NCBI GenBank assembly: GCA_038025085.1
Contig: CM076140.1
Span: 19,717,501-19,781,500 of the forward strand
DNA length: 64,000 bases
Direction of reading: 5' to 3'
Source of the DNA: Tetragonia tetragonoides
Lineage: Eukaryota > Streptophyta > Magnoliopsida > Caryophyllales > Aizoaceae
A model generated the notes under the pieces. The model made no database searches. It was not told where the DNA came from and was given only the letters and a program-made list of their open reading frames with translations. The position numbers were made by a program, and so were the translations under genes. Positions 10,496 through 58,108 of the stretch are shown here, piece after piece; position 1 is the stretch's first letter; each line of letters opens with the position of its first letter.

Positions 10496-10721
10496 CTTGA
10501 AAAAACAGTTAGGCGCCTATACAGGCACGCCGCTCCAGGTCCAAGCGGCTACGCTTGGGCTCAAGCGGTGGCCGCTAAGACAAGCGGCTTTGCCGCTTGG
10601 CCTGCCAGCTCAGCTGCTTGGCCTAGCTGAATGGCCGTCTGGACCTTTTCTCGCGGACGGCGAATTCGAGGCCCATCTCGATTTCCGTGCCACCTTGACA
10701 GGTCCCCCTCTTCTATATAAA
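10496..10721 (+). promoter_or_regulatory. LTR promoter of C: AGCGGC/GCCGCTTG array plus TATA box
   Basis: 10520-10630 holds a run of AAGCGGC and GCCGCTTG half-sites in alternating orientation, preceded by AGGCGCCTATACAGG (10511-10525). A TATA box (TATATAAA, 10714-10721) follows about 90 bp later. The same half-sites and the same AGGCGCCTATACAGG word occur upstream of the antisense DUF7745 gene of C. That this is the RNA start region is inference from the TATA box and LTR position. Confidence 0.7.
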
Positions 10722-11270
10722 CAAACCTTAGGGTTCAGTTGAAGGGGTTGGGAATTTTAGAGGTTGGACATTCTCTCTGAAAGGCTGGCCTTTAGGTTAG
10801 CAGTTTCTCTCTCTCTCTCTCTCATATAAAACTAGAAATTATGATTCTACTCCTTCTTTAGGTTAGCCCTAGCACCACAAAATAAACCTTCACACTTCAT
10901 CAAGAGCATGAATTCAAGCATTATAACCCAATAAGTTCATTGTGAGCATCCAGGTAATCCAACCCGAAGGTTTTCAATAAACTTTTATATTTCTTATTAT
11001 TACTAACGATTTTGGTTTATGTGATATGTACATGCATGGCGCGTTTTCGAGCAAAAGGGCTTGTATTAGGCCTAATTAATGGATGAATGAATGTTTTAAT
11101 TTTGTTATTTATTGCTTCTTATGATTAAATTGTGCTTTGTTTGTGGATTGGTGGATGAATTATTGGTTTGTCTTCTAACTTGTAGGTTTTAGCATATTTA
11201 TCGTTTTTAGCAATAAAAGCATGTAATTCGATAAATTGTTAAAAGTGGTCACAATAATAATGTTTGTTCA

Positions 11271-12676
11271 TATTTTTTGGTGGAGTTTCTGGGGCTGTGC
11301 AGCAGCAGATTCATGATATTTTGCATATGGAGGTTGGTTAGTTGCCTGTTAGGTACATGGGAGTACGTTTGACATCAAGATCACTTACTTCTGCAGACTG
11401 TTTGGGTTTAGTTGAGAGGATCACGACAAAAATAAGACCTTGGTCCAGCAAATTCCTTTTGTTATAGCAAGGACACAACTTATTAACTCTGTACTCTTCA
11501 GTTTACACAATTTTTGGGGGTCTATTTTTGTTTTGCCAAAGAAGGTTATCAAACAAGTTGAAACTTTGTGTAGAAATTTTCTCTGGAGTGGCAATGAGAA
11601 TTATAAACAGCCACTTGTTGCTTGGAAAGATCTTTGTCAGCCTAAACTGAATGGAGGGCTTGGATTCAAGGACTTGTATGCTGTTAACACAGCTCTGATT
11701 TTAAAGTTGCTCTGGTGCTTTGCAAACAAAGCAGATGTGTTGTGGGTCAAGTGGATACATGAAGTTTATACAGCTTAGGAATCCTTTTGGGAGATGCAGC
11801 TGTCAACAAATCAGTCATGGTGTTTCAAGAAGCTCCTTAAGCTTAGAGAGCCAGCATTAAAGTGTGTTGATATCCAAAATGGTGAGCCTCACTGGATAGC
11901 TGGTCCCCCTCCTTTTACTACAAAAGCAACATATAAAAAATTGCAACAGGTTACACCCTTGCAGCGCTGGGCTAAGTTTATCTGGGGTAGAAACTGTTAT
12001 CCTAAGCACTCATTTACAACTTGGATTATGATGCAGAAAAAGCTTCCTACAAAAGATAGATTGATAGTCAGTGGTATGAATTTTGGGGCAAGATGTGTGA
12101 TGTGCAATACTGATGATGAATCAAACATTTATTTCTTCCTTGTGATTTTGCAAAAGAGGTGTGGAAAGATATTGGGGGTTATATTCAGTTCAAACCTCCC
12201 CCTGCTAGCTGAGATGCTATGATTGATTGGGGTATGAAACATGTTAGAGGTTCCTCTGCATGTAGATCTATATGTAAAGCTGTTGTCACTGCCTGTTTCT
12301 ACCAAATCTGGGTTGCCAAAAATCATCTAATCTTTAGACAGGAACAGCCTACGGTGGTACAGATCACAACAAGAATTCGTTATGAGATGAAGGTGCAGCT
12401 CAGCAACATTGAGAGAGTAAGGGATACAAAGAAGAATAGGGCGTGGTGCGTAGCTGTTGCCATACAGCCTGTTTTTTCACAGAAAGTATAGATACAGTTT
12501 GTATAGGAGTTGGGAAGTATAGTAGTTTACAGATTGTTTATGTCTTGCTTTAGTAGTTGACAGGGTAGCAAAATGTTAGCTCCCTATATAGATTTGATAT
12601 ACAGATGTCAAGCTCTCCATTGATCATTTTGGTAAGTGAATACAAAGCTCACATTTTACCTAAAAAAAAATAAAAA
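11271..12676 (+). mobile_element. 5'-truncated L1-type LINE
   Basis: A plus-strand fragment encoding the end of a plant LINE ORF2, with stops and frame changes. It covers the RT thumb region (LPVRYMGVRL near 11345, then RNFLWSG and LNGGLGFKDL near 11575-11670) and the zf-RVT region (RWAKFIWG, KHSFTTW, RCVMCN near 11960-12110). A 3' UTR and an A-rich tail (12663-12676) follow. The target duplication AATGTTTGTTCA is at 11259-11270 and 12677-12688, about 12 bp, as expected for target-primed reverse transcription. It landed in the 5' LTR of C; the 3' LTR has the empty site near 57670. Confidence 0.93.
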
Positions 12677-13119
12677 AATGTTTGTTCAACCCATTAGTTA
12701 AAACTAGAAAGTTGGACAAATTGAACCTTGTTTGGAACCGTTGCGTTAATAATTATATTGAATCGATTAGTAAAGGTCGTTGTTGTCAACGGGCGAGTTG
12801 GGTGACTAACACCTTCCTAGCTCGTACTCACGCCCCCAAACTCATTTATGAAGTCAATTTCCCCAATAGGGATTGGGGTGCACAGGAATTGAGTTGACGT
12901 CTTTCTAGACTATCGCCTTGATTCCAAGGTTTCCAAATTACCTTAAATTTGGTGGCGACTTCCGACAATCTTAATCATGTCCCTAATACGAAAGGGAAAT
13001 CTTCATGTGCATTCACACTCAAAGGTTCACGAAAACCCGAACGACCGCGCTCTCCCAGGCTGCCCGGAAACCCGAAGGAAAAGGGGGCGAAAAGGGGAGA
13101 AATATCAGGTAGCCTACAG

Positions 13120-13137
13120 TGGCGACTTCACTGGGGA
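13120..13137 (+). promoter_or_regulatory. Primer-binding site of element C
   Basis: TGGCGACTTCACTGGGGA lies 1 bp after the LTR end. The same 18 bases occur on the minus strand in A (26729-26746) and B (39446-39463). Tat/Ogre elements are usually reported to use tRNA-Arg; I have not matched it to a tRNA. Confidence 0.88.
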
Positions 13138-13487
13138 CATGATTAAGGGGGTGTAACTTGAAAATCGATTCATAGTCATTATTTTTGCTTGGTTCACTAC
13201 CTTGAGTGTTCTTATTATTATTTTGTGACTTGTCATTCATCTATTAATTTGCATTCATTGCATTCATGTGCATGCGCTTGTGTGACTTCCGAGCTTGTTT
13301 TTACAAGTTCAAAATAGGTTTTAGCCAACGGAGTGTGGTGAAGTGCCTTGGTGAAAATCCACTCGATTCTTCTTTGCCAAAAAACATGGATCCCCCCACC
13401 TCATGTACCTTCCTACGCATTCGTCCATTGGACGAGTAGGATAACTAGAATGCCTCACATTGTCGCGCATCCCACGGATTGTAGTAC
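13138..13487 (+). other. Leader of element C, first part
   Basis: Untranslated leader, cut at 13487 by element A. The last five bases (AGTAC, 13483-13487) are the target duplication of A; the leader resumes at 41757. Confidence 0.75.
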
Positions 13488-15020
13488 TGTAAGAACCCTC
13501 GCCTCTCCGGCACTCCGTGGCGGAATTTAATCTTTGGATTGGAATTAATGGTTCTTAAATAATACGTCAATATGCAATTTAAATTAATTATGGGGAATAA
13601 CAATTTGCAAATAAAGAAGCAGCCACCAATTTTTAGGGAACAATTGGAAACCATCAAAAAGTGCACCCAATTCCTATTGGGAATTGACTCATGCCCATGG
13701 GGACTAAATATTGAGTTCGGGGGTGTAGGTACAAAATAAACAAAACGAATCTCATCTAAATTGCCCGTATAAACGGCCTCTACTAAGCTTATCCATGCCA
13801 AATATTTATTTACGCTATATGGTTCCAAATAAATCCGGTCGTCCAAGATCCTAAATTAACTAGGCGGGTTAGAGATAACCAAATTACCTATGTTATCACT
13901 TTGCACAATTTATATCCAATTCACATGTATACTATTATCAAGCATAAACAAGATATAAGAACAATAAATTGACGCTCCAACCTATCGTACTTTGCTAAAC
14001 GCGCCAAATATTGCATATGCACATCAATAAATTGTTAGTAACTGCAAAGGAAGAACAATGCAAAGATATCAACTTTATGCTAAAATACACCTATGAGGTT
14101 GCTAGATGCATGCAAAAACTATTAAAAGATGCAAACTTGCATAAACTAATAAAAAGATGCTAACTTTAAATTAACTAATTATGCATAATTATGTACAAAG
14201 ACCCAAACATGCAGATTTACTCAACCATAATCAAAAGCTAAATAAAACATGATTAATAGACAATAAATAAGAGATTTAATAAAGAATTTAGGCCCTCAGG
14301 ATGGTTAACCTAGACGTTCTATTCGAATGGGACTAGTAGAATTGGAATTGCTCTTCAATCTTGGGTGCTAGGTTAGGTGACATGCTTGCTTGGGTCTTCA
14401 AAAATCTGAATTCTCTTTGATTTGGGGAAAATATGTGCTCTCAATGCTCTCAAAATTATGAACTGACCAACCTCTCTCAAAAGAGGGTGAAAAGGAGTAT
14501 TTATAGAGTTAGGGGACAGAATTAGGGGCTTAGAGTAAGAAACCCGGCGCCAAAACTCGGCCCAGCCAAAAAATAGGCCCAGCGGCCACACGGAAGGCAG
14601 CTGGGGCCAGCGGCTGCCGCTGGGCCTAGGGGCTGCCCAGAAGGCCCCCGCTGTCATGCGTGTGCCGCCGGACTGACAGTGTCAGCCGCTGGGCCCGGAG
14701 GCGCGTGCGTGCCTAGTGTTTTTTGACTTTTTGTGCCCAGTATATTACAAAATTGCCCTTGGGTTGACCCAGGGGGTCGGGATTAAGCGGTTTTGACCCA
14801 AATTTTCGAGACGCGATATCTCTTGATCCAGGAGCCTGATTGAGGCAAGGTCAAAGGCGTTGGAATCCTTATAACAAGGGCTATCCAAAGACTGAGGTTT
14901 CAAGGAATTTGGTCTAGATTTCCGAGCAATGTCATTTTCTACTTACGTCCATGTTAATCCATTATCATCATCATCGGGCGTTGCGGTGCCAGGCGATGAG
15001 AACCGATTAGGGTGTCTACA
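13488..15020 (-). repeat. 3' LTR of element A
   Basis: Plus-strand ends TGTAAGAACCC and GGGTGTCTACA. The first 290 bp differ from the other copy at about 11 sites by eye. In minus orientation an array of CAGCGGC/GCCGCTG half-sites (14700-14577) is followed by a TATA box (CTCTATAAATAC, 14509-14498). The other LTR (40780-41756) has about 60 bp more in this array. Confidence 0.92.
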
Positions 15021-15034
15021 GAAGCCCCCACTTT
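15021..15034 (-). promoter_or_regulatory. Polypurine tract of element A
   Basis: On the minus strand AAAGTGGGGGCTTC, directly before the 3' LTR. B has AAAGTGGAGGCTTT and C AAAGTAGGGGCTTC at the same place. Confidence 0.85.
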
Positions 15035-15159
15035 GGCTGAGCTTGTGAAAGCGAAGGTCAAAGTATTTGCTAAAAATGCCTGCTGTTTTTTTGTTTGAAA
15101 ATGCTTTATGTTAGAAAGTAAGAAGGAGTAGACTCCTGACCGCCTGTGGTCAGGGTTAC

Positions 15160-15362
15160 CTGGTTTGCGGGTGTTAACGCGATGCTAATTTTAATAGCTT
15201 CACCATCAAAGAGCGTTGCGTAGCTCTGCTTTGCGGGTGCCAATATGACGCTAATTTTAATAGCCTCAACATCGAAGAGCGTTGCGTAGCTCTGCTTTGC
15301 GGGTGCCAACGTAACGCTCATTTTATAGCCTCAACATCGAAGAGCGTTGCGTAGCTCTGCTT
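15160..15362. repeat. 3' UTR tandem repeat of element A (about 70 bp, 3 copies)
   Basis: Three imperfect copies containing TTGCGGGTG, ACGCTNATTTTA, ATCGAAGAGCGTTGCGTAG. The unit keeps one frame open on the minus strand for part of its length, but no ATG-led gene is evident. It sits between the polypurine tract and the PMD promoter, where B and C carry unrelated tandem repeats. Confidence 0.8.
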
Positions 15363-15629
15363 CAGTGATGCATATGTGCTGGAAAATTGTGCCTGCAAAA
15401 AATTGAATAAAGTGCCTGTACCAGCAAAAATTAGATGGGATGCTTGTGCCTGCGAAAACAGATGATACCAGGTCCCTAGGATAGGAAACCAAGTTGTGGG
15501 GGCAAAAAAGTCAGTTTAGGTGACATGCCCGAATCTCCCGGTATTCTAATGGTCGAGAAATGCAATCTCGCGTGGAATTTGAACTTGCGGGCCTGCCCTG
15601 TGAGAGGCGGAAGAGAAAAAAGGTTCAAC

Positions 15630-15800
15630 GGCCATGTGCAGGGCCGCCGAGCGCTGCGCGGCCTTATCGGGCCTGCTCAGCGGCTCAGATGACAGTGCGG
15701 GGGTGCTGAGAGGGGCCGCGCGGCCTGGCGGCTCTGCTGCCGGGGCCAGCGGCTAAGCCGCTGAGCCTGGGCGGCCTTGAACCGGGCCGCGGGGCCGGTT
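15630..15800 (+). promoter_or_regulatory. Putative PMD promoter of A: CAGCGGC/GCCGCTG array
   Basis: GC-rich stretch with CAGCGGC, GCCGCTGAGC, GCGCGGCC and similar half-sites in both orientations, then a CT-rich stretch (15870-15900) and the ATG at 16113. I see no TATA box. The half-sites match those in the LTR of A and upstream of its DUF7745 gene (18755-18945). Confidence 0.5.
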
Positions 15801-16112
15801 CAGAGGCGCGGATGGGGTTTAATTTGGGGAAGAGCCGAATTTTGGGTCATTTCTTCCCAAAAATTCGAGACTCTCTCTCTCTACCTCCATTGTTGCCCAA
15901 ACTTCATTTCTTGCTAAAAATTGCTCAAATTTGCTCCTTTTTGCTTGCATTTGCTTGCTTTTGCATAATCTTTGCATAATTTGAAGTTTATTTGTGATTT
16001 CTCACAAATTTGGGGTGAATTTGAGAGTGGGTTTTTGAAACCCTTGGAGAGAGAAAATCTTGTCTTCTCCATTTTTGCTTGTTGTTCTTGCTTGCTTTGC
16101 TCATCCTTCTTC

Positions 16113-18302
16113 ATGGCTCCAAAATTGGCAAGGAAGAGGAGTTGGAGGACCGAAGTGCGGGAGGAGGTCGAAGAAATCGACATTTTCACCAAGACTTTTC
16201 CTTCTCATGTGAAGCCTTCAAAGAGGAAGCCCAATGTGGCTTTTCCTCAAGATCGATACACCCGGTCGGACAGGATGCCCGACATTGTTTGGGATCGATC
16301 TGAGTTGCTTTTCCGACCGGTGACTCATTTGAGCTCTCGGGCTTCCAAGTTCGTGGTAAACCTCAAATTTTGAATTCATAGTTTTATGCATTGAATTTTA
16401 GCTTATATGCTTTGCCTTGAGTTTGAATCTGTGTAGAAATTGTATGCAATTGTCAAGTTTGTAGCGCATGTGATCTTACGCGACTTGAACGAACTTAGAA
16501 ATATGCCTAGGACTGTACATTTGATTGAAATGTGAACCTAAGGGGTTGCGAATTGATCATAGGAACCCGATGGGAATTTGAAGGCCCATGGCAACTATGG
16601 CTCTGCAGTGAGGCTTTTTAAAATCTTGTCCAAAGAGGTGCAGAATGCGGTTTTGAATGCGGGGTTTGGGCCCTTTTGAAAGCGGCGGACTCGGTTGAGT
16701 GAGTCAAAAGGTGTATTGTCCGCTTGTCTTTGGAGCATTTTTGGGATACTACCAACACGTTCCATTTCCCTAATGGGGAGATGATGATCACTCCCTTGGA
16801 GTTTGCTATGTTGACCGGGGTACCTTGCGTGGGTATGCCCGTTTTCTATGACGTTTCCATTTGTAAGCGTAAGGCGGAGATGGTGGAGCTTTTCGGTCCT
16901 TAGGGGAACACTTGGGGTCACTATTACAGTTCCTATAGCGAGCTTTTCGCTGCTTTGAAGGACACGAGGTATAAGAGAAATACCTCGGTGGAGCAAAAGG
17001 CGAGGATGTTCATCGCCTACCTAGCATCTAGGGCGGTGGACCGCCAGAGGATCCTGATTGCGGGTCCGTTCTCTTTTCAGTGGTACTTAGGAGAGCGGAT
17101 CTTCCATCCGGTTTATCCTAACGTGGCGGGCTCGAGGATTCCCTCGGATCCTCCCTCGACCATGTTCTTGGTGAGGTGCTTGTCTCGCGAGCAGGTTGCG
17201 GAGGACATGGTGGGCTCGGATGCTATGCGGTATTTGAGGGAGCCTGCGGAGGACCTCGCGGGGCACTACGAACAGTTCCGCCGTGATCGCCTCATGCCTT
17301 CATTTGTGGGTTTGAAGGTAAGAATTTAATGTTTTGATATTCTATGCCTTTCTTGTTTTGTTGGATGCTAACTTACTTTTCTTTGTAGGAGCCTCGAGTT
17401 GACGCCATTGATGTGGATTTCCCGGACATGCGGGTCCGAGGTCGGGACTATGGCGGGAAGGAGTGTTGGGGGAAAGTCCCCATGACGGAGGACCTTGATG
17501 AGGACATCCAGGGCCTTCCTCTTCCAGTTGGGCATCCAGGGGTAAACTCGTAATTTTACTAATATGTGCGATGCTTTGTCGTTTTGCATGCTTGTACTGA
17601 CTTTTCTTTGCGTAGCTTGACCGTGAGCAGTCCGGGAAGGTCTTCAAGATGATGCATGCCATGAAGTCCTGGATATCCCGGGCTCTTTCAAAGGGTACTT
17701 GCTCAAGAGTTGACTTGGACAAGGTAATCTTGATTTTGCATTTTCAAAGTTACATGCTTCGAGAAATGTATCTTATATATTTGGTGGGCTGCAGATTGAG
17801 TACCGTCGACCCCTTCCTCGTCGGTCACGACAAGTAGTATTGTCAGATGATGAGGTCGTGAGCTCTCCTTAGCGTAGCCCTTCGCGAGAGGAGCCCTCGG
17901 AGGGAGAGTCCTAGGAGAGAGAGTGTGCCTGCACATCGGACAGACCATCCTGGTGGGAGTAGGATGACTCCGTTTGTGGAGCCTACTCCTATGCCTATGT
18001 CGATGTATCCTTCTTATTTCGGGTATGCGGGGTATCCTTCATATGGCGGTCTTTATTACCAACCTCCTGTCCCTGCTCCTATGATGCCTACCATGCCTCC
18101 TCGTTCTTCGCGGGGGTATGATTCGAGTTATGCTAGGGAGGGGTGCTCGTACCGGGAGCATGCCCGACATTCTTCCTTTGACCCTAGCCAGGTCGTGGCG
18201 TCGATCTTTGGTGACGAGCCGCGGAGATCGGAGGATCACTTTGAGGTGCTCCGTATGGATGCTGGTGCGGGTGATGATTTTTATGATAATGTATTTGTGT
18301 GA
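16113..18302 (+). pseudogene. Plant mobile domain (PMD) gene of element A, antisense to pol
   Basis: Five exons by GT-AG rule: 16113-16355, 16609-17317, 17389-17541, 17616-17723, 17795-18302. Exon 1 starts MAPKLARKRSW, basic and like the start of the C copy (MAPKL). Exon 2 holds the PMD core (FWDTTNTFHFPNGEMMITP, LEFAMLTGVP). It then jumps from MFIAYL to RILIAGPFSFQWYLGER, lacking roughly 150 residues present in B. Exon 5 ends in a Pro/Met/Tyr-rich tail. There is a frame change early in exon 2 and stops near 16903 and in exon 5, so it is broken. PMD proteins of plants (MAIN/MAIL family) act in the nucleus in silencing and genome stability; the role inside a retrotransposon is unknown. Exon ends are inferred from splice motifs and alignment to B and C. 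Confidence 0.75.
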
Positions 18303-18750
18303 AATACATTCTGAACATTTGTGTTGAACAAACATTCGGATTTTACCTGTAAATATTGCTTATTTATTGGTCCCAGCATATAATTAGGCTAAATGCGAAT
18401 GCATAAGTAGTCAAGCAAAAGCGCAAGCAATAGCCATGTAGCAAAAAATGGTACAACCAAAAAGTTAAAATTGGGTGTACCCTATCCCCCCCAAAAAAAA
18501 AATGAAAAAAAGAAAAGGGGTGCAAAAATGAAATGAAAATAATAAGTAAAAAGGGATTAGTAAAAGACATAAAAAGGAAAAGATGATAATCATCCAAAAA
18601 GAAATAAGGAAATTATGCAGCTTCCATAAATAATAAGGAAATAATAGAAAATAGAAATAATAGCGAAAATAGGAAATTGAGCCAAATTGGAGTCCAAAAC
18701 CGTTAAGGAAAGTGTCAAAAACCGGAGAAAAAAGGGTTGTCTCGAGAAAA
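18303..18750. other. A-rich spacer of element A
   Basis: A/T-rich low-complexity DNA between the PMD stop and the DUF7745 promoter. Hydrophobic minus-strand frames here are products of the T-rich composition. B has an A-rich spacer at the same place (32834-33230). Confidence 0.6.
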
Positions 18751-18754
18751 TAGC

Positions 18755-19002
18755 CTGGCGGCCAAAGGGAGGCGTCCAGCGGCACGCGCGAAGGAGCGGG
18801 GGGCAAAAATAGGGGCCGCCAGACTCAGCGGCTGTGCCGCTTGGGCTCTGCGGCCTGCCGTTGAAACTCAGCGGCTGGGCCGTTTGGCCTTGGCTGCACT
18901 ATCGAGGCCGCTGAGCCTTCAGCGGCGGTCCCAGGGGCTGCTGAAGCCCCTTTTTGACGGGTTGCCTTATTTTTTCGTCTTTTTCGTGCTAGCCCTATAT
19001 AA
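18755..19002 (+). promoter_or_regulatory. DUF7745 promoter of A: AGCGG/CCGCT array plus TATA box
   Basis: 18775-18945 contains at least four inverted pairs of CAGCGGC/GCCGCTTG-type half-sites. TATATAA (18996-19002) follows about 50 bp later, and the start codon position of the DUF7745 gene (19100) about 100 bp after that. B and C show the same order and spacing. Confidence 0.65.
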
Positions 19003-19099
19003 CCCTTGGGTTAGTCCGGTTTTGGGACATCACCTTCATAATTTACTAGTAATAGAGAGCTTTTTAGAGAGAGAAACCTCCCCATTAATCTAGATTTCA

Positions 19100-20642
19100 A
19101 CGATAACAAGCTTTGAAGTTAAATTTGATAAGTGGTTACGATCTATGACCCCCAAAGAGAGGATGAGACTTGTGCCTTTCCATTTGAATGCTCTCTTCCA
19201 CTTGAAGCAAGTTCAAATCGTTTGGAACCTTCTCGAGGCCGTCGTTGAATTTTGGGATGACAAACTCCATGTTTTTAGATTTGGGTATAATGAATTGTGC
19301 CCTCTTCCCGAAGAATTTGCCGACATACTTGGATTCCCTCATGATCAAGCTCCCACTACTCCATGGCTCGGGGCCAACCTTGAAGGTTACTATAAAATGT
19401 ATCTTGGCCTATCCCCAACACAAGCCTCCTCCGTTGCAAGGAGCGGTGAGCTAGACCTCAATGGTGTGATTGACATCTTTTTCCCCAAGGTAAGGGATGA
19501 TCGCGATGAGACGTATTATAGACGTGCTTTTATCTTATGTCTCTTGCATAGGTACTTCTTTGTTGGTGGAGGTAATAATGGTAAAACTTGTATGTTTAGA
19601 ATTGTTGAGCAAATTAAAAATGATTTTACCCCTATGTCTCTTGTTCTTGGTGAAACTTTAATTTGCTTGGACCGCAAGAAACAAGAGCCGTCGTCTTGTG
19701 GATGGACGGGAAGCCCTCTTCTCCTTCAAGTGAGTGCTTGAATAAATTGCTTTGATAAAGTTTGAATCTTTAATGGAAATCTAACTTTATGTTTTGCCTT
19801 GTTGGTTTTTTTTTTAGATATGGCTCCTGGAGCATATGTGCTTCATTGAGAGGTCGGCTAATGCGCTCAAATATCAACCAAAGTAGTTTCCTGCTCGTCG
19901 GAGGCTTTATTATGAATCCACCATTGATGAGTGGCGCGGGTACCTTAAAGCTTGCCCTTTGCTAAGATGGACTGTCAAGTGGTGGGGCCTAAAATCAGCA
20001 ATCGAATGTAGCAAGGAAACGGGATATTATCAAGTGCTTGGCCTTCATAATTTGACTTACATATTTCCTAGCCGTATCATGCGGCAATATGAGAAACGCC
20101 AAATTATCCCACAAAAGGAAAGTGTTGCTCCTGCTACACGGGCTTTGACAATTAGCATGGCGAGATCCTGGGAGTGTGCATGGGATCGTCGCCCTAAGTG
20201 GACTATTACTCACATCAAGGCCCCTACGGCCATATCTTCGGCTTATGAAACTTGGATGGACTGTAAGACCGCGGAGGGCCGTCGTACATGCAGGAAATCC
20301 GAACAGGGCGATCTTAAGGCCCAATCGGTCAAGGCTAGCTTAAGGCTTTCCAACGCTAATGATCCTAAAGGGAAGGGTAAGCAGAAGGGAGTCAAGCATG
20401 TGAAAAGTGTCCTCAACCCGAAGGCCAAGAAAGCTTTAGCAAAGATTACTACCAAACCGCAAGCGGAGCCCCAAATTCGGGCCAATGATCATGAGGCCTC
20501 CTCAAGCGTCCCTCTAATGGAGGTTGAAAAAGAAGAGCCTTTGGTTCGAGAGAGATGGGCTCCCAAGGAATGCGAAGTGGAAGGCCCAAAGGTAGGTGAG
20601 CCCATGGAGGATGCAGTCCCTACCACCGAAGCTACGGAGTAG
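19100..20642 (+). pseudogene. DUF7745-like gene of element A, antisense to pol
   Basis: Two exons: 19100-19729 and 19818-20642, with an 88-bp intron (GTGAGT...TTTAG) in phase 0 between LLLQ and IW. The start ATG seen in B and C is ACG here (19100-19102), and an in-frame TAG (19884-19886) interrupts exon 2 where C has a Gln codon. The protein has the order PFHLNALFHLKQ, FWDDKLHVFRFG, ELCPL, LGLSP, RAFILCLL, VLGETL, FPSRIMRQY, then a Lys/Gly-rich basic stretch and an end with NDHEASSS...VRERWAPKE. This matches the plant family I know as DUF7745, often found next to Tat-type gag-pol. Function unknown; the basic tail suggests nucleic-acid binding (inference). It converges with pol, whose stop is at 21096. 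Confidence 0.82.
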
Positions 20643-20893
20643 TCTATTAAGGAAATATTCTTTTGGAGCATGTCTAGCTTAGGATTGCCTTTTATTTGCT
20701 TTAAATTCAATAAGCGTGATGTGCCCCTTCTTTAGATTTAGATTTAATTTTTGCCTTAATATTTTGGGAATTGCCAAGTCTTTGTTATGGACTTTATTAT
20801 TATTATTTATGAAGACATGCTCATTTTAATATTGCAACCTTGTGTTTATTATATGCATATATTTTAACAACTTTTGAACGCGAATATGATGAA

Positions 20894-20962
20894 GGGGCCA
20901 GGCCCAATTGCGATTAGGCTGTCCTACGTATCCTTTTAGGGAAATCAGGCCGCTCGTAGTTC
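20894..20962 (+). promoter_or_regulatory. Conserved non-coding block between convergent genes (A)
   Basis: Contains GGGGCCAGGCCC, TCCTACGTATCC and GGGAAATCAGGCC in this order. The same words in the same order occur at 34961-35023 (B) and, reversed, at 49350-49413 (C), always between the DUF7745 stop and the integrase stop. Purpose unknown; a shared 3'-end, packaging or priming signal is possible. Confidence 0.6.
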
Positions 20963-20991
20963 TTATCCGTTTTTTTTTAACATTAAGTCCC

Positions 20992-20992
<1 letters not shown>

Positions 20993-21040
<48 letters not shown>
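20993..21040. repeat. Poly(T) tract
   Basis: About 48 T in a row between the convergent genes of element A. Confidence 0.95.
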
Positions 21041-21095
21041 CGGGATTAGGTGGCCTTGTATGGGCCTCTTGAAAGTGCTATATTGGGTGTCTTGC

Positions 21096-23120: not shown

Positions 23121-23122
23121 TT

Positions 23123-24340: not shown

Positions 24341-24345
24341 GCCCC

Positions 24346-25702: not shown

Positions 25703-25980
25703 TTATGGACGTAAAAAAGGCTCGCTTAAGAAAGTAGGAATTAAATGGAAAACTCCACAGAATAAAGATTTTATTTTAAAACAAATGTGGGAAGAGAATC
25801 TAGCACTAATCTTCAACATGGTGATCTTCGGGAAAGACGCGATTTTATGTAAATAGTATATTCTAGTCAATGATCTCTCGACTTTATTAGAATAAAAAGT
25901 ACTCTTGACTTGCATATGGGATGAAATTCCCTAATTTAAGGAAAGAAGATATACTATTGACTTGCATATAGAAATAAGTA

Positions 25981-26019
<39 letters not shown>

Positions 26020-26728: not shown

Positions 26729-26746
26729 TCCCCAGTGAAGTCGCCA
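26729..26746 (-). promoter_or_regulatory. Primer-binding site of element A
   Basis: The complement reads TGGCGACTTCACTGGGGA and lies 1 bp from the LTR at 26748. Confidence 0.88.
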
Positions 26747-26747
26747 C

Positions 26748-39463: not shown

Positions 39464-39464
39464 C

Positions 39465-40774: not shown

Positions 40775-40779
40775 TATAT

Positions 40780-45780: not shown

Positions 45781-45784
45781 ATCG

Positions 45785-47890: not shown

Positions 47891-49253
47891 CCAGATGATG
47901 TAATCTCCATGCCCATTCACATTCAAAGGCGCACTGAGCCCGCCTTTTGTAATGCACTTGAAGTACGCGCCAATGAGGAAGAAGAAGAGGAATGGTTTAC
48001 CGACATTCTCAATCTACTCGCCAAAGGCGATTACCCTCCACAATCCACACCTAGGGCACAAAGAGCTTTAAGAAGACTAGCCGCAAAATACATACATGTG
48101 CAAGGCAAACTTTATAAAAAGACACCACAAGGGCTAAGTCTTCTATGCTTAAAGGAACGTGAGGCCATCAAAGCCATGAGCGACATATATAATGGTGTAT
48201 GTGGTCCTCACATGAATGGACTAAACTTGGTCAAGAAAATCCTAAGGCAAGGATACTATTGGACTACAATGGAGAAAGACTGCATCGAATACGTGAGAAA
48301 GTGCACACGCTGCCAATTCCACGCCAATTTACAACATAGACCTCCTACTCCTCTACACACGTTCACTTCACCATGGCCGTTCTCTGCATGGGGTATTGAC
48401 ATTATTGGGAAAATCACCCCTACAAGAAAAAGGAGGCCATGAATACATACTAGTCGCGATAGATTATTTCACCAAATGGGTTGAAGCTCGCTCGTACATA
48501 AGAATAGCGTTAAAACATGTGGCAAAGTTCATACATGACAACATCATCACCAGATACGGAGTACCCCACGAAATCATAAGTGATCACGGGACCCAATTCA
48601 AAAAGGATGTTGCCGAGCTATTTACTAAGTTTAAAATTCAACATCGACAGTCTTCACCTTATAGGCCACAAACGAATGGAGCCGTAGAATCCGCAAACAA
48701 GAACGTAAAACCGATGATAGCTAAGATGACGGAAAACTACGAAGATTGGCCCGACAAGCTACAATTCGCCTTATGGGGATATAGAACTACTATTCGATCC
48801 TCAATAGGAGCAACGCCTTATTCTTTAGTATACGAAATGGAGGCGGTACTCCCAGTCGAGGTAGAAATCCCTTCCTTAAGGATAGCTTTGAAAAGTGAAT
48901 TACCCGAAGTGGATTGGGCCCAGGCCCGATATGACCAATTGGTCTTGCTAGATGAAAGACGACTAAATGCCCTACATTATGGTCATGTCTACCAAGCAAG
49001 TATGGCAAGACATTTTGATCAACGATTCAAGGCTAGAGGACTAAAAGAAGGAGACTTAGTCCTAAAAGAGGTAAGACCAATTGTAGTCGACCCTCGGGGA
49101 AAGTTCAAGCCTAATTGGGCCGGCCCATACATCATCAAGACAATATTATCCGGTGGAGCGGTAAAGTTAATAGATTTAGACGGCAACGAGTACACTCAAC
49201 TCACAAACATGGACCAACTTAAGCGATTCTATGCATACATGTTAAATCTTTGA
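47891..49253 (+). pseudogene. Integrase of element C
   Basis: Zinc domain (YNGVCGPHMNG...CTRCQFHA) near 48200-48325, first catalytic Asp in WGIDIIGKI near 48395, a frameshift in 48410-48440, then IISDHGTQF (second Asp), NGAVESANK (Glu), YSLVYEMEAVLPVE, and DPRGKFKPNWAGPY in the C-terminal domain. Ends at TGA 49253. Apart from the frameshift it is complete and parallel to B. Confidence 0.92.
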
Positions 49254-49349
49254 GAGAGCCCACTAAGGCACCAAGTCCAAGTCAAAATCAATCAAACCCG
49301 TCCACATAGGATCCACTACTGAAAAATAAAAAAAAAAGGAATTTGGTTT

Positions 49350-49413
49350 TACGAACTACATTGGCCTGATTCCGCATGGATATGTAGGTAACCCATATAA
49401 CTTGGGGCCGGCC
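49350..49413 (-). promoter_or_regulatory. Conserved non-coding block between convergent genes (C)
   Basis: On the minus strand GGCCGGCCCC, TTACCTACATATCC, GGAATCAGGCC, TGTAGTT: same words and order as in A and B. Confidence 0.62.
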
Positions 49414-49671
49414 ACTTTAATAAAATAAATCTCTAAGGGAGTTTTGATCCATTCGATTAATGCAAAAATAAGCAAGCCTTTCATTAATATGGCTAAAGTC
49501 CATTACATGCTCTAATAATAAAAAAAGGAAGTGTGAGAAAAATAATAAATAAATAAAAGGGCAATTCTAAGCTACATATACTTGGGCATACAACCCCGTT
49601 ATTTGAATTATACTACTAAGCAAAAAGGAACAAGACTTGCTAGACAATTAGAGGTGGACTACTCCTCGTTC

Positions 49672-51207
49672 TTAACCGGGCTCTTGGGCGGGCTCGCTAG
49701 GCTCATCAAGTTCCATTCGTTCTTTGGGAGCCCATCTTTCCCTACCATAGCTAGAAGAGGCCTCGTGATCATTGGGCCTAATTGGAGCTACTTGCTTCGC
49801 CGAGTGGGTCAGATTCTTTCTCTTCTTAGATTGGGCCTTTGCCTTGCCTTTTCCCTTACCCTTAGTTTGTGGCTTGGAAGGTCTAGCAGGCCTATCAATG
49901 GGAGTTATCCTTATACTGTTTGGCTCATCATATTTGCGGGCCTTGAACAACTTCTTTTCCTCTTCCAGAAGCTTCGGGTTGACTCGACGATCACCGCTCT
50001 AAATCCATTGCTCATAAAAGATCGACAGCCAATGAGATTGAGGAAATACTGGCTTAACCCATATCTGATGACGACTCCAATATCGCTCCCAACGGGACAC
50101 TAAGGAAGGAGTCAATGGACGTTGACGAGGGCACACACAGCTTACATTCGGAATTCTCTGCTGTAAACCATATTGTCGCAAAAGGCGATTTTGCAAAAAG
50201 GAAGTCAAAGTACGTAAGCCTACAATCCGGGTAAAGGGCATATCTTCACTACACCCAACGAGTTTAGTGGTATGCCACCACGGGATGAACCAACCTATTT
50301 GGGTTTTGGAATAAAAGAATTTCAACCATTCCTCATGGGAGGATAGAGAGAAGTGTCGACGTCTCGCCGGAAATTGCTTGGGAAGATACTTTTTGGTATC
50401 TATTGAAGGAATTTCTAAGATATTGAGTCTCTCTTCAAGCCATATCTACACAAAAGCAACAAAAGAAAAATTCAAGTCAACACAAGATGAGAATTTCACC
50501 AAATAAAGTTAAATCCATAAAGATTAAGGCTTTATCACAAAACTTACTTGAAGGAGTAAAGGGCTCTCGGTAAAGGACTCATGAGAATTTCTCTTGAGTC
50601 TATCTAAAGCAAGGATTGTCTCTCCCACGACCAAGTGCATAGGAGAGCTATCCCATTGAATTTGCTCGGTCACCCTAAGAAGGCAAGCTTTGCCTCTATT
50701 GATGGTAGACTTCTTTTCGGATGGAATAAGAGCGTCTTCATTACCACCAACGAACAAATAACGACGGAGGCAAAATACAAAGGCACGTTTCTTGTACCTC
50801 ATATCCATCGCATCCCGGGCCCTAGAGGTGAAGAAAGTCACAAGCTTGGCAAGATCAACATCCTCACCATGAAGCAGTTGACCCGCTTGACGGGGAGACA
50901 ACCCGAGGTACCTTTGAAAATCACCCACGAAAGCATTCCCCATGTAAGGAACGACGGGAAGGCTTTCGGTTGGAAAGCCAATGATATCGCAGAACTCCTC
51001 CACCAAAGGGCACATCTCATGAGCACCAAAACGAAAGACATGGAATTTTGGGTCCCAAAACTCAATAGAAGCATGAAGGAAATCGCACAAAATCTTGACT
51101 TGTTTAAGGTGAAAGAAGGCATTAAGATGGAAAGGGGTGAGCTCTAATCTCTCCTCTACCGTCATGGAAGCTAACCAAGCATCAAAGACATCATCAAAGT
51201 TCACCAT
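49672..51207 (-). pseudogene. DUF7745-like gene of element C, antisense to pol
   Basis: Exon 1 51207-50548 (MVNFDDVFDAW... to LLLQ), intron 50547-50446 (GTAAGT...TGTAG, 102 bp, phase 0), exon 2 from 50445 (IWLEERLNIL). The intron is at the same codon as in A. Exon 2 contains FPARRRHFSLS, PWWHTTKLVGCSEDMPF, RLLRQYGLQQ, then a stop after YEQWI near 50000, a basic Lys/Gly tail (KGKGKGKAKAQSKKRK) and NDHEASSS...RERWAPKE near the end (49672). One stop makes it a likely pseudogene, though the stop is late. Function unknown. Confidence 0.85.
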
Positions 51208-51296
51208 TGTTAAGATTAAAGATTTTCTCTTAAGGAATTTTCTCTCTCTAGGGGCTCAAAGCAAGTGGTGAGAAGAGAAGAGAAAGAAACCCAACT

Positions 51297-51530
51297 ATAT
51301 AGAGGCCACGGTTGGATTCTCGTCGAAAAATTAAGGAAATTCAGACAACGGACGAAAAAGGGGCCAGGCGGCCTCGCAGCTAGTCCGGACGGCTTACCCG
51401 CTAGGACGAGCGGCTAAGCCACTCCAACAAGCGCTTGACCGCTAGGACAAGCAGCAACCGCTAGAGCTCTAGCACAGCCGCTAGGAGCTCTAGCCGTCAC
51501 CCTGTATAGGCGCCTGGTGCGCTATTTTGC
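51297..51530 (-). promoter_or_regulatory. DUF7745 promoter of C: AGCGG/CCGCT array plus TATA box
   Basis: Reading the minus strand: GGACC near 51543, AGGCGCCTATACAGG (51514-51500), an array of GCGGTTGCTGCTTG, GCGGTCAAGCGC, TAGCCGCTCG-like half-sites (51495-51360), then CTATATA (51303-51297) and the ATG at 51207. The first two words and their order match the LTR of C (10451-10525), so LTR and antisense promoter share an origin or a constraint. Confidence 0.68.
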
Positions 51531-51543
51531 GAGAGGCCTCGGT

Positions 51544-52017
51544 CCACCCAACCCCACCGTTTAACCGGGCTCTACCTTCCTAATCCCCACTTGGACAGAT
51601 TTTGGAAGCCTTCCCTTATATTTTTCTTACCTTAATTTTGGCTCTTGCCACTTTTCTATTTATTCCCTTTTTATTTTCTTTCCTTCTTTTTATTTTGATT
51701 ATCAAGTTCCACTTTTATTCCTTTTATTTTCTGATTCTTTATTTTCTTTATTTTTATTTTTCCCTTTTAATTATCTTTTGTTCTATTTGCTTTTTCTTTA
51801 CTTCATTTTTATTTTTAAGGGAAGGGGTACCCCAAATGTGCTAAATTCTCGGGAGTCCTAAATTTCCGAATATCATGATTTGTGATTTCCCACTCGGAAA
51901 TTAGTTGATTAAGTTCACATATGGGCATTTGCGTGATATTTTTGTACGTGAATAAAATACAATATTTATATCAGGTTTAATACAAGCCCGACAGTTCGAA
52001 ATGCACTACAACAAATA
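51544..52017. other. T-rich spacer of element C
   Basis: Long T/C-rich stretch (51600-51830), equivalent to the A-rich spacers of A and B read on the other strand. A hydrophobic 80-codon frame here comes from base composition. Confidence 0.6.
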
Positions 52018-55000
52018 TCACTGGCCATCTTCGCGGGTACTCGGACCCGCCTGAGACGACTCTCTGGGTCCACTCGTTGATGGAGCACCTGAAGGACCGG
52101 GCTGAGACATCGCCCAAGCTCTAGGGTCAAAAGCAAACAAGGAACCCGTCAAGTAAGCGGGATCCAGTGAATGGCGCGGTGGCTCCGACATGCCGGGATA
52201 GCCGCCATACCCCGTACTCTCCTAACTCCAAGAACCCCTTGGGGGAACTGGAGGATACATGGGCATATGATAGCCCGGATAACCCATATAGGGAGGCGGT
52301 GCAGGCCACTGCGGAAGATAAGGCACTTGGCGCGGGTTCCCTGTATCCACTCTAGCCCGAGGTGTCCCTTGACGCACCTCTGTACTCTCTTGCCTAGGGG
52401 GAGGATGCTGCGGTGTAGACACCGACTCCGGAGTACGAACAACTGGAGGCCTGGGAGGCCTCACCACGGGAGCAGGCTGCGAAATAAGCCCAAGGTCATA
52501 AAATTACAAAAATTCAAATCGAGCACTATCACTCGAAATGAACATATCTCTCGAACGTCGGACCGACGACTCGTGCATGCACTCTGAGACATGAATCTGG
52601 AAATCAAATTCTTAAAGGCATGCAGGCCTCTATAGATCTTCCGCGTCTCAACAGCATCCAACTGTGCACATAAGGAAAAGAGTCAGTATAAATACAAAGG
52701 AAACATTGCAAATTACAATGGATTCTCACTTACCCCCCTACAGCAAGCTGGTAGAGGCAATCCCTCAACCTCCTCATTGGGACCACGAAACTCAGGAATC
52801 TGTATAACCTGAGGAGATCTGTCCACTCCTGTATAACCCACTGACATGGTAGGAGGAGCCGGGCACGGAGAAGAGGCAGTCGCATGAGACGACGAAAAAC
52901 TCGCAGCACTCTGCAAAGACTCAAAAAAAATATATATATTAGACACATTTCTAAATTTCCAAACGAAATTGAGAAACAAAAGTACATTACTTACCGGGTT
53001 AGTAAAGAAGTTGGGGCACAACCGAGCCTCAGCAAACTCGGTATATGCCAACATGAAATCCAGCCCAGGGTCAGTTGGACACATATACTCGAAGGCATTC
53101 GCCCGACAGTAGCCGCCCTTACCTGCTCCATGGTAAGGTGACGAATGTAAAGCATAGAATCCGGGGGATCCAAAGGAATCCTCGGAGCCAGAAGGTCGGA
53201 GAAAGTCTGCCTAATCAGTCTCTCTCCCAAGAACCACTCAAAACCGAAGGGACCCTCAATAAGGATCCTCCTCTGGTCATACTCCCGCGCGCCCAAAAAT
53301 CTATCCGAGAGACCCGGGAGGTAATCCGTCCAAGGGAACCAGTCGACCTACAAAAGCAAGAATGAGCACACAAAGGGATAAAAGGACGAAAAGCACAAAG
53401 ATTAATGGCTTACATCCTGAGCGGTAAAGGGTTATATTGCCTCCCTAAGGGCGTGTAGCGTAGTAAATGGGCAAGATGTCCGTCCCTTCCAAGTCTGCAT
53501 CGCTGGAAAGGACAAATCCCCTATCTCGAGAAGAGGGAAAAAGGTCGGAGAAATGCTCATAAAACCAAATCTAAGACATGCAAAGTACATGGATTAGGCA
53601 TAAGCTGTGAGTAAAGAGCCAAAAACACAAAGTATAAGAAGGGTAAAAGGAAATTACCTCCATAACCTTCCAATAACCGACCAAGGAGACGCGAAACGCG
53701 CCCTCCTCTCCACTGAGGCGGCTGGACTGCCTCAAGCATCGAAGAAGATAGGATTATGCGGAAGACCCCAATTGTACTCCGCAACTCTGTCCAAATCCCG
53801 CAAACACGGGAATTAGCGAACATGGTACCTACTAGCTTTATCCGAAAAGACGGAACAAGCTCAAACATAGGCCAAGAAAAGGCGAGCGTGCTGCTCCACT
53901 GTGACCTTCTTCAACTTCCTTGGGTTGGTCAAGAACTGGACCATAACGCCAGTCCTGCCATACTCCCTACCATCCCAGTTGGCCCCAAAAAGGCCAAACT
54001 TCTCCACCATAACCTCCCTACTCACGTCTCCATAATGATAGGAATACCGGTGCAAGGGAGCCCGGAAATGAGACTAAACTCGAAAGGGGTGATCATAATC
54101 TCACCCATGGGAAAATGAAAAGTACTGGTAGTATCCCAGTACCACTCCGCAAGACCTCTAACGAGCAAGCGGTCGGAGCGCTTAGCAGAAGCGATAGACG
54201 CTAAAAAGCGACCAAAGCCACAAGGCTCCACAATAGCGTCGACCGAAGGAGTCATGTACCTACGGGATTTTTCGATACCCGAAAGGCTACCGTAACCCCG
54301 CATGGCAGTGTCGACATCCTATATATCACAATAATTTGCAAAGACAATTAGCTAGGTGATCCTAGTAACAACTACCAGTCTCCGGTTTAGTCCTAAATTT
54401 TTACAATTCGTAAAATTTAGCGTCTCTAGCTAAACCAACATGACAAGAGTAATTTTAACGAGAACGGATTTCACACAATTTTATTCTCCACAAATATAAA
54501 AAAAAAAAAAACATACACCACCATAACAAAAATAAACTTCATTCAAGTTTATTTTCACAGAATATATATATAAATGCCACAAGAATAAATTTCATACAAA
54601 TTTATTTTCCACCATTAAAGATGAATTTCATACAAGTTCATTCTTCACATGCGAAACATATATGATGTAAGAAACCTACGGGAATTCACAAATTAACAAG
54701 AAAAACAATTTCACGCAAATTGGTTTTTCCACATTTAGCTACACTACAGTTCTCAACCTAAAAGTTCTATGTTTGCCTACACATGATTTTCTAAGTGTAA
54801 AAGAGCAAAAAAAAAAAAAAAAGAAACAATGACATACCCAACATTTGGTACCAACGGTAACCAAATGCTCATTCTTCTTGGAAACAAGATCGTTGGGCTC
54901 CCAACGATCAGTAGGATGAAAATCACTACTAGTGAACTGATCCTGGACTAACCGATGCTCGCCCACCCGGTGATGGGGTATACTGGAAACAAAAACCCGA

Positions 55001-55077
55001 GTGAAAACATTCGGAGCCTCATGAACAACAATCTCTTGCCCTTTCCTTTTCCTACCTCCTCTAAGTTTAGGAGCCAT
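52018..55077 (-). pseudogene. Plant mobile domain (PMD) gene of element C, antisense to pol
   Basis: Exon 1 55077-54838 (80 codons, MAPKLRGGRKRKGQE..., donor GTATGT). Exon 2 starts at 54318 (DVDTAMRGYG) and carries the PMD core (YWDTTSTFHFPMGEIMITP, FEFSLISGLPCTG), with a frameshift near 54040 and further stops, to a GTAATT donor at 53657. Later exons contain IWFYEHFSDLFP, VDWFPWTDYLPGL, FEGPFGFEWFLGERL-like text (RILIEGPFGFEWFLGERL near 53260), EVEGLPLPACCRG (near 52740, donor GTAAGT), a Pro/Tyr/Met-rich tail and the stop at 52018-52020. Same gene plan as A and B. Broken by at least two frame changes and stops. Confidence 0.75.
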
Positions 55078-55384
55078 GGATGAAGAACAAAAATGGAGTT
55101 TTTGGAAATTTGGGTGAAACTCACAAAACTCACAAATTCACACAATTTTGAGTTTTGACACTCAAAAACACAAGAATAACTAACAAAATCAAGTTCTACT
55201 AAGAATTTGAGGAAGAAAACCTCAAGATTTGGAGCTAGGGGCTTTGATGGAGGTTGAAAGCTTTGAAGAAAAATGGAGGAGAGAGAAAGGAGAAGGCAAA
55301 ATGGGGAAGATGACCCATTTCGGCCTCCCCCTTTTCTTTTTATGCATACCCGTGAAAAAACCTAATGGCCGGTCAAACCGCCTA

Positions 55385-55600
55385 GGTGGACAGTCAGACC
55401 GCCCAGCTGGAGGTCAGACCGCAAGGCAAGCGGCTTGGCCGCTAGTCCCAACGGCTTGACCGTTTGGGTGAGCGGTTCAACTGCTCCACCAAGCGGCGTA
55501 GCCGCTCCACCAAGCGGCATAGCCACTTCAGCCAGCGGTTTAGTCGCTCCACCTAGCGGTTCAACCGCTTGACGTGGTGGCTTGACCACCTGGCCCACTC
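55385..55600 (-). promoter_or_regulatory. Putative PMD promoter of C: AAGCGG/CCGCTT array
   Basis: A run of about ten CCGCT/AGCGG half-sites at short intervals (for example AAGCGGCTTGGCCGCT, AAGCGGCGTAGCCGCT, AAGCGGCATAGCC), directly upstream of the PMD start at 55077. ATAAAAA (about 55342-55336, minus strand) might act as a weak TATA. The spelling AAGCGGC is that of the C LTR, unlike A (CAGCGGC) or B (GCTAGC). Confidence 0.55.
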
Positions 55601-55794
55601 TCTCACCTCTAACGTTTTATGGGCCATTGGTTAAAAATCAGTGGGCCCCACGCGAGGTCCAAAGCAGTTATTTGCGCGCCAAAGTCCGTTTATGAAAGCA
55701 TGACTACTTTAAACCCACAGGTTTGTACATTTAAACTCGGCCAAGTGACATGGGCTCGCACCCGACCTAAGGTCTGAGCAACATTTTATTACCC

Positions 55795-56400
55795 TCTACA
55801 TTTGCTACTCATCCTATTTCTAACGAAATATTTTTATTGTGTAACCTACAGCACAGAGTTCCCCTTCGACTGAATATCGAAGGACATTTATTGTTTGACC
55901 TACAGCACAGGGTCACCCTTCGACTAAAAATCGAAGGATTTTTATCTCTTATTCTTCTACACTAATGAAATATTTTTATTGTGTAACCAACAACATAGGG
56001 TTCCCCTTCGACTGAAAATCGAAGGACATTTATTGTGTATCCTACAGCATATGGTTCCCCTTCGACTGATAATCGAAGGACATTTATTGTGTGACCTACA
56101 GCATAGGGTCTCTCCCTTCGACTAAAAATCGAAGGATTTCTTATCATTTATTACTAAAGAAATATTTTTATTGTGTAACCTACAGCACAGGGTTCCCCTT
56201 CGACTGAAAATCGAAGGACATTTATTGTGTGACCTACAGCATAGGGTCTCCTTCGACTGAAAATCTAATGATTTTTTATTATTTATTACCTATCGTAAAT
56301 ATTTTTATTGTGTGACCTACAGCACAAAGTCTCTCCGTTCGATTGATGATCGAAGGATTTTAATTGTGTGACCAACAGCATAGGGTCAAACTCTCGGTCA
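55795..56400. repeat. 3' UTR tandem repeat of element C with internal hairpins
   Basis: About ten imperfect units of 50-60 bp with TTTATTGTGTGACCTACAGCA and CCCTTCGACTGAAAATCGAAGG-like hairpins (stem CCTTCGA/TCGAAGG, seen eight times). Same location as the unrelated repeats of A and B. Confidence 0.88.
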
Positions 56401-56532
56401 AATAAACCGGAAAATTTATTACTCTAAAATGATTGTTTATCTTTAACTGATTATCACCTCACTCAGTTTGCCTGTTTTATTGCAGGTATTGGCACATGAA
56501 TACTTTGACCTTCGCTCTATTCGAGCTCGGCC

Positions 56533-56546
56533 AAAGTAGGGGCTTC
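56533..56546 (+). promoter_or_regulatory. Polypurine tract of element C
   Basis: AAAGTAGGGGCTTC immediately before the 3' LTR at 56547. Confidence 0.85.
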
Positions 56547-58108
56547 TATAGACAACAAAAATTGTGTCTATGATGAGTCCTCGTAAAAACCCGATGATGA
56601 AAGGATTGGATTTTGCTCGAACTTGGGTTGCGAGAATAATTGCTCTGATGATTAGCCTAGTTCATTTGAATTAACCAGTGGAAGCCTTTTGTACAGGTGA
56701 TCCAAACCAGTAGGACTCAATTCAATTGGAGTCCAAAGCTGAGAGATAGGCCTCTTTGAACCTAAGGGCCCGAAAGGGAACCCAAACCCATGAGTCAACC
56801 CTTGGTCAAACAAGGGAACTCAGTCAATCCCACGTGGACCCCCTCGGAAAAGCCTCCCCCGCTTGTAAAAACAGTCAGGCGCCTATACAGGCACGCCGCT
56901 CCAGGTCCAAGCGGCTACGCTTGGGCTCAAGCGGCTTGACCGCTGGCCTTGCGGCTAAGCCGCTTGCCAAGCAGCTTGACCGCTTGTCCTGTCAGCTCAG
57001 CCGCTTGGCTTAGCTGAATGGCCGCCTGGACATTTTCTCGCGGACGGCGAATTCGAGGTCCATCTCGATTTCCGTGCCAAACCCTGGCAGCTCCCGCTCT
57101 TCTATATAAACAAACCTTAGGGTTCAGTTGAAGGGGTTGGGAATTTTAGAGGTTGGACATTCTCCCTGAAAGGCTGGCCTTTTGGTTAGCAGCTTCTCTC
57201 TCTCTCTCATATAAAACCAGAAATTCTGATTCTACTCCTTCTTTAGGTTAGCCCTAGCACCACAAAACAAAACTTCACACTTCATGAAGAGCATGAATTC
57301 AAGCATTATAATCCAATAACTTCATTGTGAGCATCCAGGTAATCCAACCTGAGGGTTTTCAATAAATTTTTATATTGCTTATTATTACTAACGATTTTGG
57401 TTTATGTGATATGTACATACATGGCGCGTTTTCGAGCAAAAGGTCTTGTATTAAGCCTAATTAAATTGTGCTTTGTTTGTGGATTGGTGGATGAATGAAT
57501 GTTTTAATTTTTTTATTTATTGCTTCTTATGATTAAATTGTGCTTTGTTTGTGGATTGGTGGATGAATTATTGGTTTGTCTTCTAACTTGCAGGTTTTAG
57601 CATACTTATCTTTTTTAGCAATAAAAGCATGTAATTTGATAAATTGTTAAAAGTGGTCACTATAATAATGTTTGTTCAACCCATTAGTTAAAACTAGAAA
57701 TTTGGACAAATTGAACCTTGTTTGGAGCCGTAGCATTAATAATTATATTAAATCGATTAGTAAAGGCCGTTGTTGTCAACGGGCGAGTTGGGTGCCTAAC
57801 ACCTTTCTAGCTCGTACTCACGCCCCCGAACTCATTTATGAAGTCAATTTCCCCAATAGGGATTGGGGTGCACAGGAATTGAGTTGACGTCTTTCTAGAC
57901 TATCGACTTGATTCCAAGGTTTTCAAACTACCTTAAATTTGGTGGCGACTTCCAACAATCTTAATCATGTCCCTAATACGAAAGGGAAATCTTCATGTGC
58001 ATTCAAACTCAAAGGTTCACGAAAACCCGAACGACCGCGCTCTCCTAGGCTGCCCGGAAACCAGAAGGAAAAGGGGGCGAAAAGGGGAGAAAAATCAGGT
58101 AGCCTACA
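56547..58108 (+). repeat. 3' LTR of element C
   Basis: Starts TATAGACAAC (TG changed to TA) and ends GCCTACA. Has its own AAGCGGC/GCCGCTTG array (56890-57010) and TATATAA near 57104. The array differs in unit number from the 5' LTR. It lacks the LINE and shows the empty site near 57670. Confidence 0.93.

Follow-up and report, generated by a model that had tools for sequence, protein, structure and literature searches.

Family-spelled palindrome arrays at the LTR and antisense promoters of nested retrotransposons in Tetragonia tetragonoides

Why should a retrotransposon carry the same short palindromes at its long terminal repeat (LTR) promoter and before two antisense genes, and why should their spelling change from one element to the next? 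The question is raised by a 64,000-nucleotide stretch of the Tetragonia tetragonoides genome (752.8 Mb in 27 contigs; positions 19717501-19781500 of contig CM076140.1), here called the window, in which three LTR retrotransposons are nested: element B lies in the right LTR of element A, and A lies within element C. C lies in plus orientation, A and B in minus, and in all three an antisense DUF7745 gene and an antisense PMD gene are found between pol and the 3' LTR. We find AGCGG palindromes before all three kinds of promoter, with a spelling that other copies in the genome support as a property of the family. We think it rather probable that these palindromes are family-specific sites for an element-encoded DNA-binding protein, most likely the antisense DUF7745 or PMD protein.

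Arrays before sense and antisense promoters

Counting AGCGG/CCGCT as core half-sites, and at least three sites with gaps up to 80 as a cluster, we find 109 core half-sites in the window, against 59.4 +- 7.5 expected from 50 order-1 simulations. An unbiased scan of all 6-mers puts AGCGGC/GCCGCT at the top, both by excess (60 vs. 14.1, order-2) and by clustering (11 clusters vs. about 0.3 expected). The preliminary description of this DNA had placed arrays in the LTR, upstream of DUF7745 and upstream of PMD in each element. This holds: all 12 clusters fall at these nine places or in the second LTR of each element:

10493..10597, plus strand: C left (5') LTR array, CAAGCGG spelling, TATA at 10714
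56859..57005, plus strand: C right (3') LTR array, TATA at 57103
51398..51514, minus strand: C array before the DUF7745 gene (core sites at 51398-51482, spelling TAGCGG), TATA near 51301
55423..55569, minus strand: C array before the PMD gene, a run of seven 21-bp units that form imperfect dyads such as AGCGGYTNARCCGCT
14581..14690, minus strand: A left (3') LTR array, YCAGCGGC spelling, TATA near 14505
41281..41426, minus strand: A right (5') LTR array, exceeding the A left array by 64 bp
18778..18925, plus strand: A array upstream of DUF7745, TATA at 18996
15679..15762, plus strand: A array upstream of PMD
28239..28290, minus strand: B left (3') LTR array, CTAGCGG spelling, TATA at 28144
40324..40402, minus strand: B right (5') LTR array
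33238..33286, plus strand: B array upstream of DUF7745, TATAAG at 33355
29698..29754, plus strand: B array upstream of PMD

The half-sites of B abut, CCGCT running directly into AGCGG, and are near-periodic, often 22 or 30 bp apart. Those of C often follow AGCGG-N5-CCGCT and are near-periodic at 20-21, 42 and 63 bp, and those of A often follow AGCGG-N5-CCGCT with irregular spacing and the spelling YCAGCGGC. Steps of 20-22 bp correspond to about two turns of the DNA helix and would fit proteins aligned on one face. Enrichment of the arrays in CpG was considered and rejected, as observed/expected values are 0.58-0.88 against 0.71 window-wide, with no consistent rise.

Because many units are near-perfect inverted repeats, they might be DNA or RNA hairpins (e.g., for packaging or as a small-RNA source) rather than protein sites. 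We consider this very improbable: compensatory change between dyad halves is not significant at the one position tested, the abutting half-sites of B leave no loop, and the arrays lie upstream of TATA boxes for sense and antisense units alike.

The arrays had first been put 40-90 bp upstream of TATA. By manual count, about 70-117 bp separate the last core site from TATA in the LTR and DUF7745 promoters, so that range has to be revised; no TATA[AT]A was seen in the PMD-promoter stretches inspected. A distance of about 70-117 bp is a usual position for an activator site, and the AGCGG core is common to A, B and C. Both points would suit a host transcription factor that reads the AGCGGC-like core, the flanks being family noise. 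Such a factor is distinctly unlikely as the explanation, given that three families in one nucleus each have largely their own spelling at their three places.

Repeated DNA also lies between the PMD promoter and the 3' LTR of each element (15160-15362, 29069-29374 and 55815-56387), without a core cluster in the window. In one other B-family copy (L031, 7071-7206), three CCGCT of this repeat form a cluster.

Spelling within the window and across copies

An element-specific spelling had been proposed from the outset, with CAGCGGC in A and AAGCGGC in C. When flanks from two kinds of place are used to assign the half-sites of the third kind, 54 of 70 go to the right element, against a label-permutation mean of 33%; the true labelling is first of 36, which is the floor of this permutation test. 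The proposal survives in this general form and fails for AAGCGG in the C DUF7745 array, where 0 of 5 half-sites have that spelling and 4 of 5 are TAGCGG. Two arrays of one element have on average 5.73 10-mers in common (15 pairs), those of different elements about 0.6, again rank 1 of 36, and a null in which cores are kept and the remainder shuffled gives 1.29 shared 10-mers (maximum 2.53 in 500). Local alignment of arrays gives a mean z of 11.5 within an element, 2.85 for the same place across elements and 2.16 for other pairs.

We show that likeness within an element is largely confined to the arrays. The 300 bp on either side have no excess 10-mer sharing. Outside the arrays, promoters are related by kind (A-C PMD downstream, z 9.5; DUF7745 upstream, z 3.3-5.7; B-C LTR downstream, z up to 8.8). 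This suggests that orthologous promoters have kept their ancestral flanks while the arrays have been rewritten in a family-specific way.

Fifteen loci elsewhere in the genome were picked by the B palindrome motif; two of these (L044 and L045) are without a cluster, and whichever of the three places (DUF7745, PMD, LTR) the loci chosen in this way contain is spelled as in B. Further copies were chosen by protein match only, which avoids a motif-based choice. With the B DUF7745 protein, 95 of 8154 first-look candidates were scored and upstream DNA was taken for 12, all of which have CT-AGCGG sites in that DNA. With a foreign DUF7745 protein (P0005), 150 of 3886 first-look candidates were scored and upstream DNA was taken for 14, which similarity sorts into 9 A-like copies, 4 C-like copies and 1 B-like copy. 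Every one of these 14 upstream regions holds 3-9 clustered core sites, where 0.8-1.6 would be expected. Flanks are mostly CC or TC in the A-like copies, and CT once and CC twice in the B-like copy. Far windows for 6 of the 14 have clusters in four and none in L084 and L087. In the four copies with far arrays, the DUF7745-side and far arrays share 10-mers by family (diagonal 45 vs. 19.3 on average over permutations; P 0.042, the smallest value that 24 permutations allow).

Array places were also predicted by alignment in new copies of A and C. A cluster is present in three of the four (the A DUF7745 place in L047, the C DUF7745 place in L046 and the C LTR in L048), with A and C spelling; the C DUF7745 place in L046 is mixed, with 3 TAGCGG and 2 AAGCGG of 6. 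The chi-square test on spelling in these copies assumes independent half-sites, and the half-sites are not independent. The copies as a whole support a spelling code that belongs to the family and not to the single copy.

Likeness among the arrays of one element might instead come from copying without recognition, if template switching in reverse transcription or gene conversion moves array blocks between LTR and internal promoters. In C, the LTR promoter (56825-57150, plus strand) and the DUF7745 promoter (51255-51540, minus strand) are collinear over about 240 bp, flank CCTATACAGG included, and AGGCGCCTATACAGG is common to the upstream edges of the two arrays. Shuffle controls cover the stretch downstream of the array, for which z is 4.0 and 2.8. 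This collinearity indicates that a block transfer probably happened in the C lineage. Copying is also favoured by the right-LTR and DUF7745 arrays of A, which match over some 67 columns with one of the two inverted, and by fast array change. Arrays are hot spots of change between LTR partners, with 7 gap events in 370 columns inside and 15 in 3935 outside; mismatches number 30 of 370 and 164 of 3935, respectively.

However, in seven B-family copies the DUF7745 and PMD arrays of the same copy are no more alike than those of different copies (k=12: 64 vs. 62.7, P 0.44). Concerted evolution at the level of the copy is thus not seen in the B family, which argues against ongoing array copying and for a constraint shared by the family. 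Copying would also be at odds with the lack of excess sharing in the 300-bp flanks, and leaves unexplained why arrays stay before promoters in diverged families and why the core is constant. We therefore regard copying as an unlikely explanation. The earlier idea that the three promoters evolve in concert is borne out for the family, and not for the single copy. Rapid repeat turnover together with selection for a match to one protein would yield the observed pattern, a scheme close to that described for VANC targets (PMC5735166).

Antisense genes and a candidate reader of the code

The following antisense genes and exon matches accompany the arrays:

33439..34776, plus strand: B DUF7745/PMD-like gene, a single open frame of 445 aa, antisense to gag-pol
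19103..20318, plus strand: A DUF7745 gene, matched at 19103-19732 and again from 19818, with a probable intron
49744..51207, minus strand: C DUF7745 gene, first exon 50542-51207, probable end
30526..31305, plus strand: B PMD gene, open frame with PMD domain (PF10536)
16706..17050, plus strand: A PMD exon match, 33% to B
53765..54234, minus strand: C PMD exon matches, 41-45% to B

The protein at the DUF7745 place of B matches PMD (PF10536) above the Pfam cut-off (E 5.6e-11) and DUF7745 (PF24924) below it, with 19.3 of the required 26 bits; for DUF7745, A is just below this cut-off (23.9) and C just above (26.1). Because a metagenome relative (P0001) passes the cut-offs for both PMD and DUF7745, the two genes encode one kind of protein. 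Named relatives come from plants (Saponaria, Spinacia and Fagus), and we found no open-access paper naming DUF7745. The DUF7745 matches of A and C break off after an SPLLLQ motif (A 19733-19817; C about 50542), where the B gene is continuous. In A the match resumes about 85 bp past this break. A probable intron kept in the antisense DUF7745 genes of A and C fits expression separate from the genomic RNA.

For a structure model of the B DUF7745 protein, the top match in the PDB is VANC21 with DNA (Foldseek E 0.13; mean predicted local distance difference test score, pLDDT, 54.9). A PDB sequence search gave weak homeodomain matches (E 0.05-0.1). Among 10 window open reading frames (ORFs) scanned by Pfam at E 0.001, PMD and DUF7745 were found, and DUF1985, DUF287 and TRP28 were not.

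In the reading we favour, a candidate DUF7745 or PMD protein would bind the palindromes of its own family at the LTR and at both antisense promoters. The AGCGG core is common to the three families, and specificity would be set by flanks, half-site order and spacing. Action at the LTR and at both antisense promoters, with all three raised or de-silenced, could form a feed-forward loop. By analogy with VANC, the outcome may be that host silencing of its own family is lifted, or transcription activated, with other families untouched. We infer this binding, the identity of the protein and the outcome from the arrays and their family spelling. An element-encoded binding protein had already been suggested, and the differing spellings within one nucleus and the likeness of the B model to VANC21 lend it indirect support, which the truncated C model does not extend.

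Several observations weigh against this reading. Three families from one genome are the whole sample. Within the window, only 1 of 7 sites in the A DUF7745 array is classified correctly, certain arrays resemble those of another element (z up to 13.7), the A right LTR and C left LTR arrays reach an alignment score of 52, and the C DUF7745 array departs from AAGCGG. The copied promoter block in C is probably a second cause of likeness. Dyad covariation within units is not significant (13/19 vs. 11.1, P 0.17). In other copies, the four C-like ones have CT at 11 and CA at 7 of 26 half-sites, a departure from C spelling, and the PMD side of L046, a C copy, has only two core half-sites and no cluster. 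Only 5 of the 12 copies chosen by B DUF7745 have at least three clustered core sites, one having a single half-site, and 4 of 8 PMD-side windows of B copies, set at a fixed, guessed distance, have no CTAGCGG. The B model is of modest confidence, as is its Foldseek match; fold searches with a truncated model of the C first exon (pLDDT 56.2) did not list VANC21, and there was no match to VANC21 at the sequence level, the PDB sequence search included.

Relation to known systems and other features of the window

Arabidopsis VANDAL21 and VANDAL6, Mutator-like DNA transposons with VANC21 and VANC6, are similar in that related families carry differing short motif arrays in non-coding regions and a candidate DNA-binding protein encoded by the transposable element (TE). 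They differ in that the arrays here are carried by an LTR retrotransposon, a GC-rich palindrome takes the place of YAGTATTAY, and the Pfam families are PMD/DUF7745, where DUF1985 and DUF287 are marked in VANC (PMC5735166). By analogy, we would file the present system as a VANC kind of system and not as a VANDAL member.

The accessory genes of Tat, Retand and Grande elements (TRP28, gene23) are likewise antisense between pol and the 3' LTR. Grande gene23 has been shown to have its own promoter, and DNA binding is predicted and a regulatory role proposed for TRP28 (PMC11963269, PMC7264820). The present elements are unlike these in their PMD/DUF7745 genes and in a matching cis code at three promoters. 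DNA binding and regulation have been suggested for antisense accessory genes of Retand-type elements (PMC11963269), and PMD is described in Ogre (PMC6317226).

The host proteins MAIN and MAIL1 are named in papers as members of the Pfam family PMD; unlike the role considered here, they are needed for TE silencing. Genes down in MAIN/MAIL1 mutants share a promoter motif (PMC7156037). This DOWN motif was rejected as a link, as it has a different sequence, CATGCAGTTT in the MORC1 promoter (PMC9899485). A TE-encoded PMD protein as a counter-silencer is an idea in print (PMC8616336), which in the accessible part of that source comes without cis sites, a family code or VANC resemblance. Neither a promoter code in Tat elements nor a PMD-VANC likeness was found in titles and abstract openings of the open-access papers that our searches listed.

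A broader proposal, on which we are evenly divided, is that plant LTR retrotransposons of the Tat/Ogre type run VANC-like self-recognition: the antisense PMD-fold proteins of a family would read its palindrome code both at the LTR and in front of their own genes, and activation or de-silencing would stay within that family. On this view a single fold would unite PMD, DUF7745 and VANC as sequence-specific DNA readers encoded by TEs, and MAIN and MAIL1 would have arisen from them by domestication. If true, LTR retrotransposons and Mutator-like DNA transposons recognise their own families by means of related proteins, and readers of this kind are the source of the PMD silencing factors of the host. 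The role of antisense accessory genes in Tat-type retrotransposons is described as an open question (PMC7264820, PMC11963269); as each family offers a candidate reader and a distinct target, their function is directly testable.

The three elements have these limits:

27369..40774, minus strand: element B, within the right LTR of A, target duplication TATAT, LTRs 27369-28643 and 39465-40774
13488..41756, minus strand: element A, B included, within C, target duplication AGTAC
10181..58108, plus strand: element C, A and B included, target duplication TATGG

The preliminary description labelled them as Tat elements, Tat being a clade of the Ty3/gypsy LTR retrotransposons. We find LTRs, 5-bp target duplications flanking each element, an integrase core domain in B and an extra PMD ORF. 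The Tat clade is marked by a second RNase H (aRH), and the extra ORF is PMD in 57% of Ogre and TRP28 in 23% of Retand elements (PMC6317226). Viral contigs gave no relatives by search with B DUF7745, PMD or integrase pieces or a C pol piece, and genome contigs gave none with the C pol piece; a 16-base B pattern matched 26 viral contigs, with an array in none.

The C left LTR carries a 1.4-kb insert (about 11271-12670), and the 5' internal region of C has a tandem repeat with a 69-bp unit (42141-42485). On the gag-pol side of B, a G-patch domain occurs in an ORF (36840-38051, minus strand). Direct repeats at 1-352 and 3736-4084, 95% alike and 3.7 kb apart, are possibly the LTRs of a small element. 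A fragment at 60000-60454 has 74% similarity to the A LTR. In L042, a related fragment (5563-5816) lies near an array (4840-4970) with C-like AAGCGG, perhaps a fourth family.

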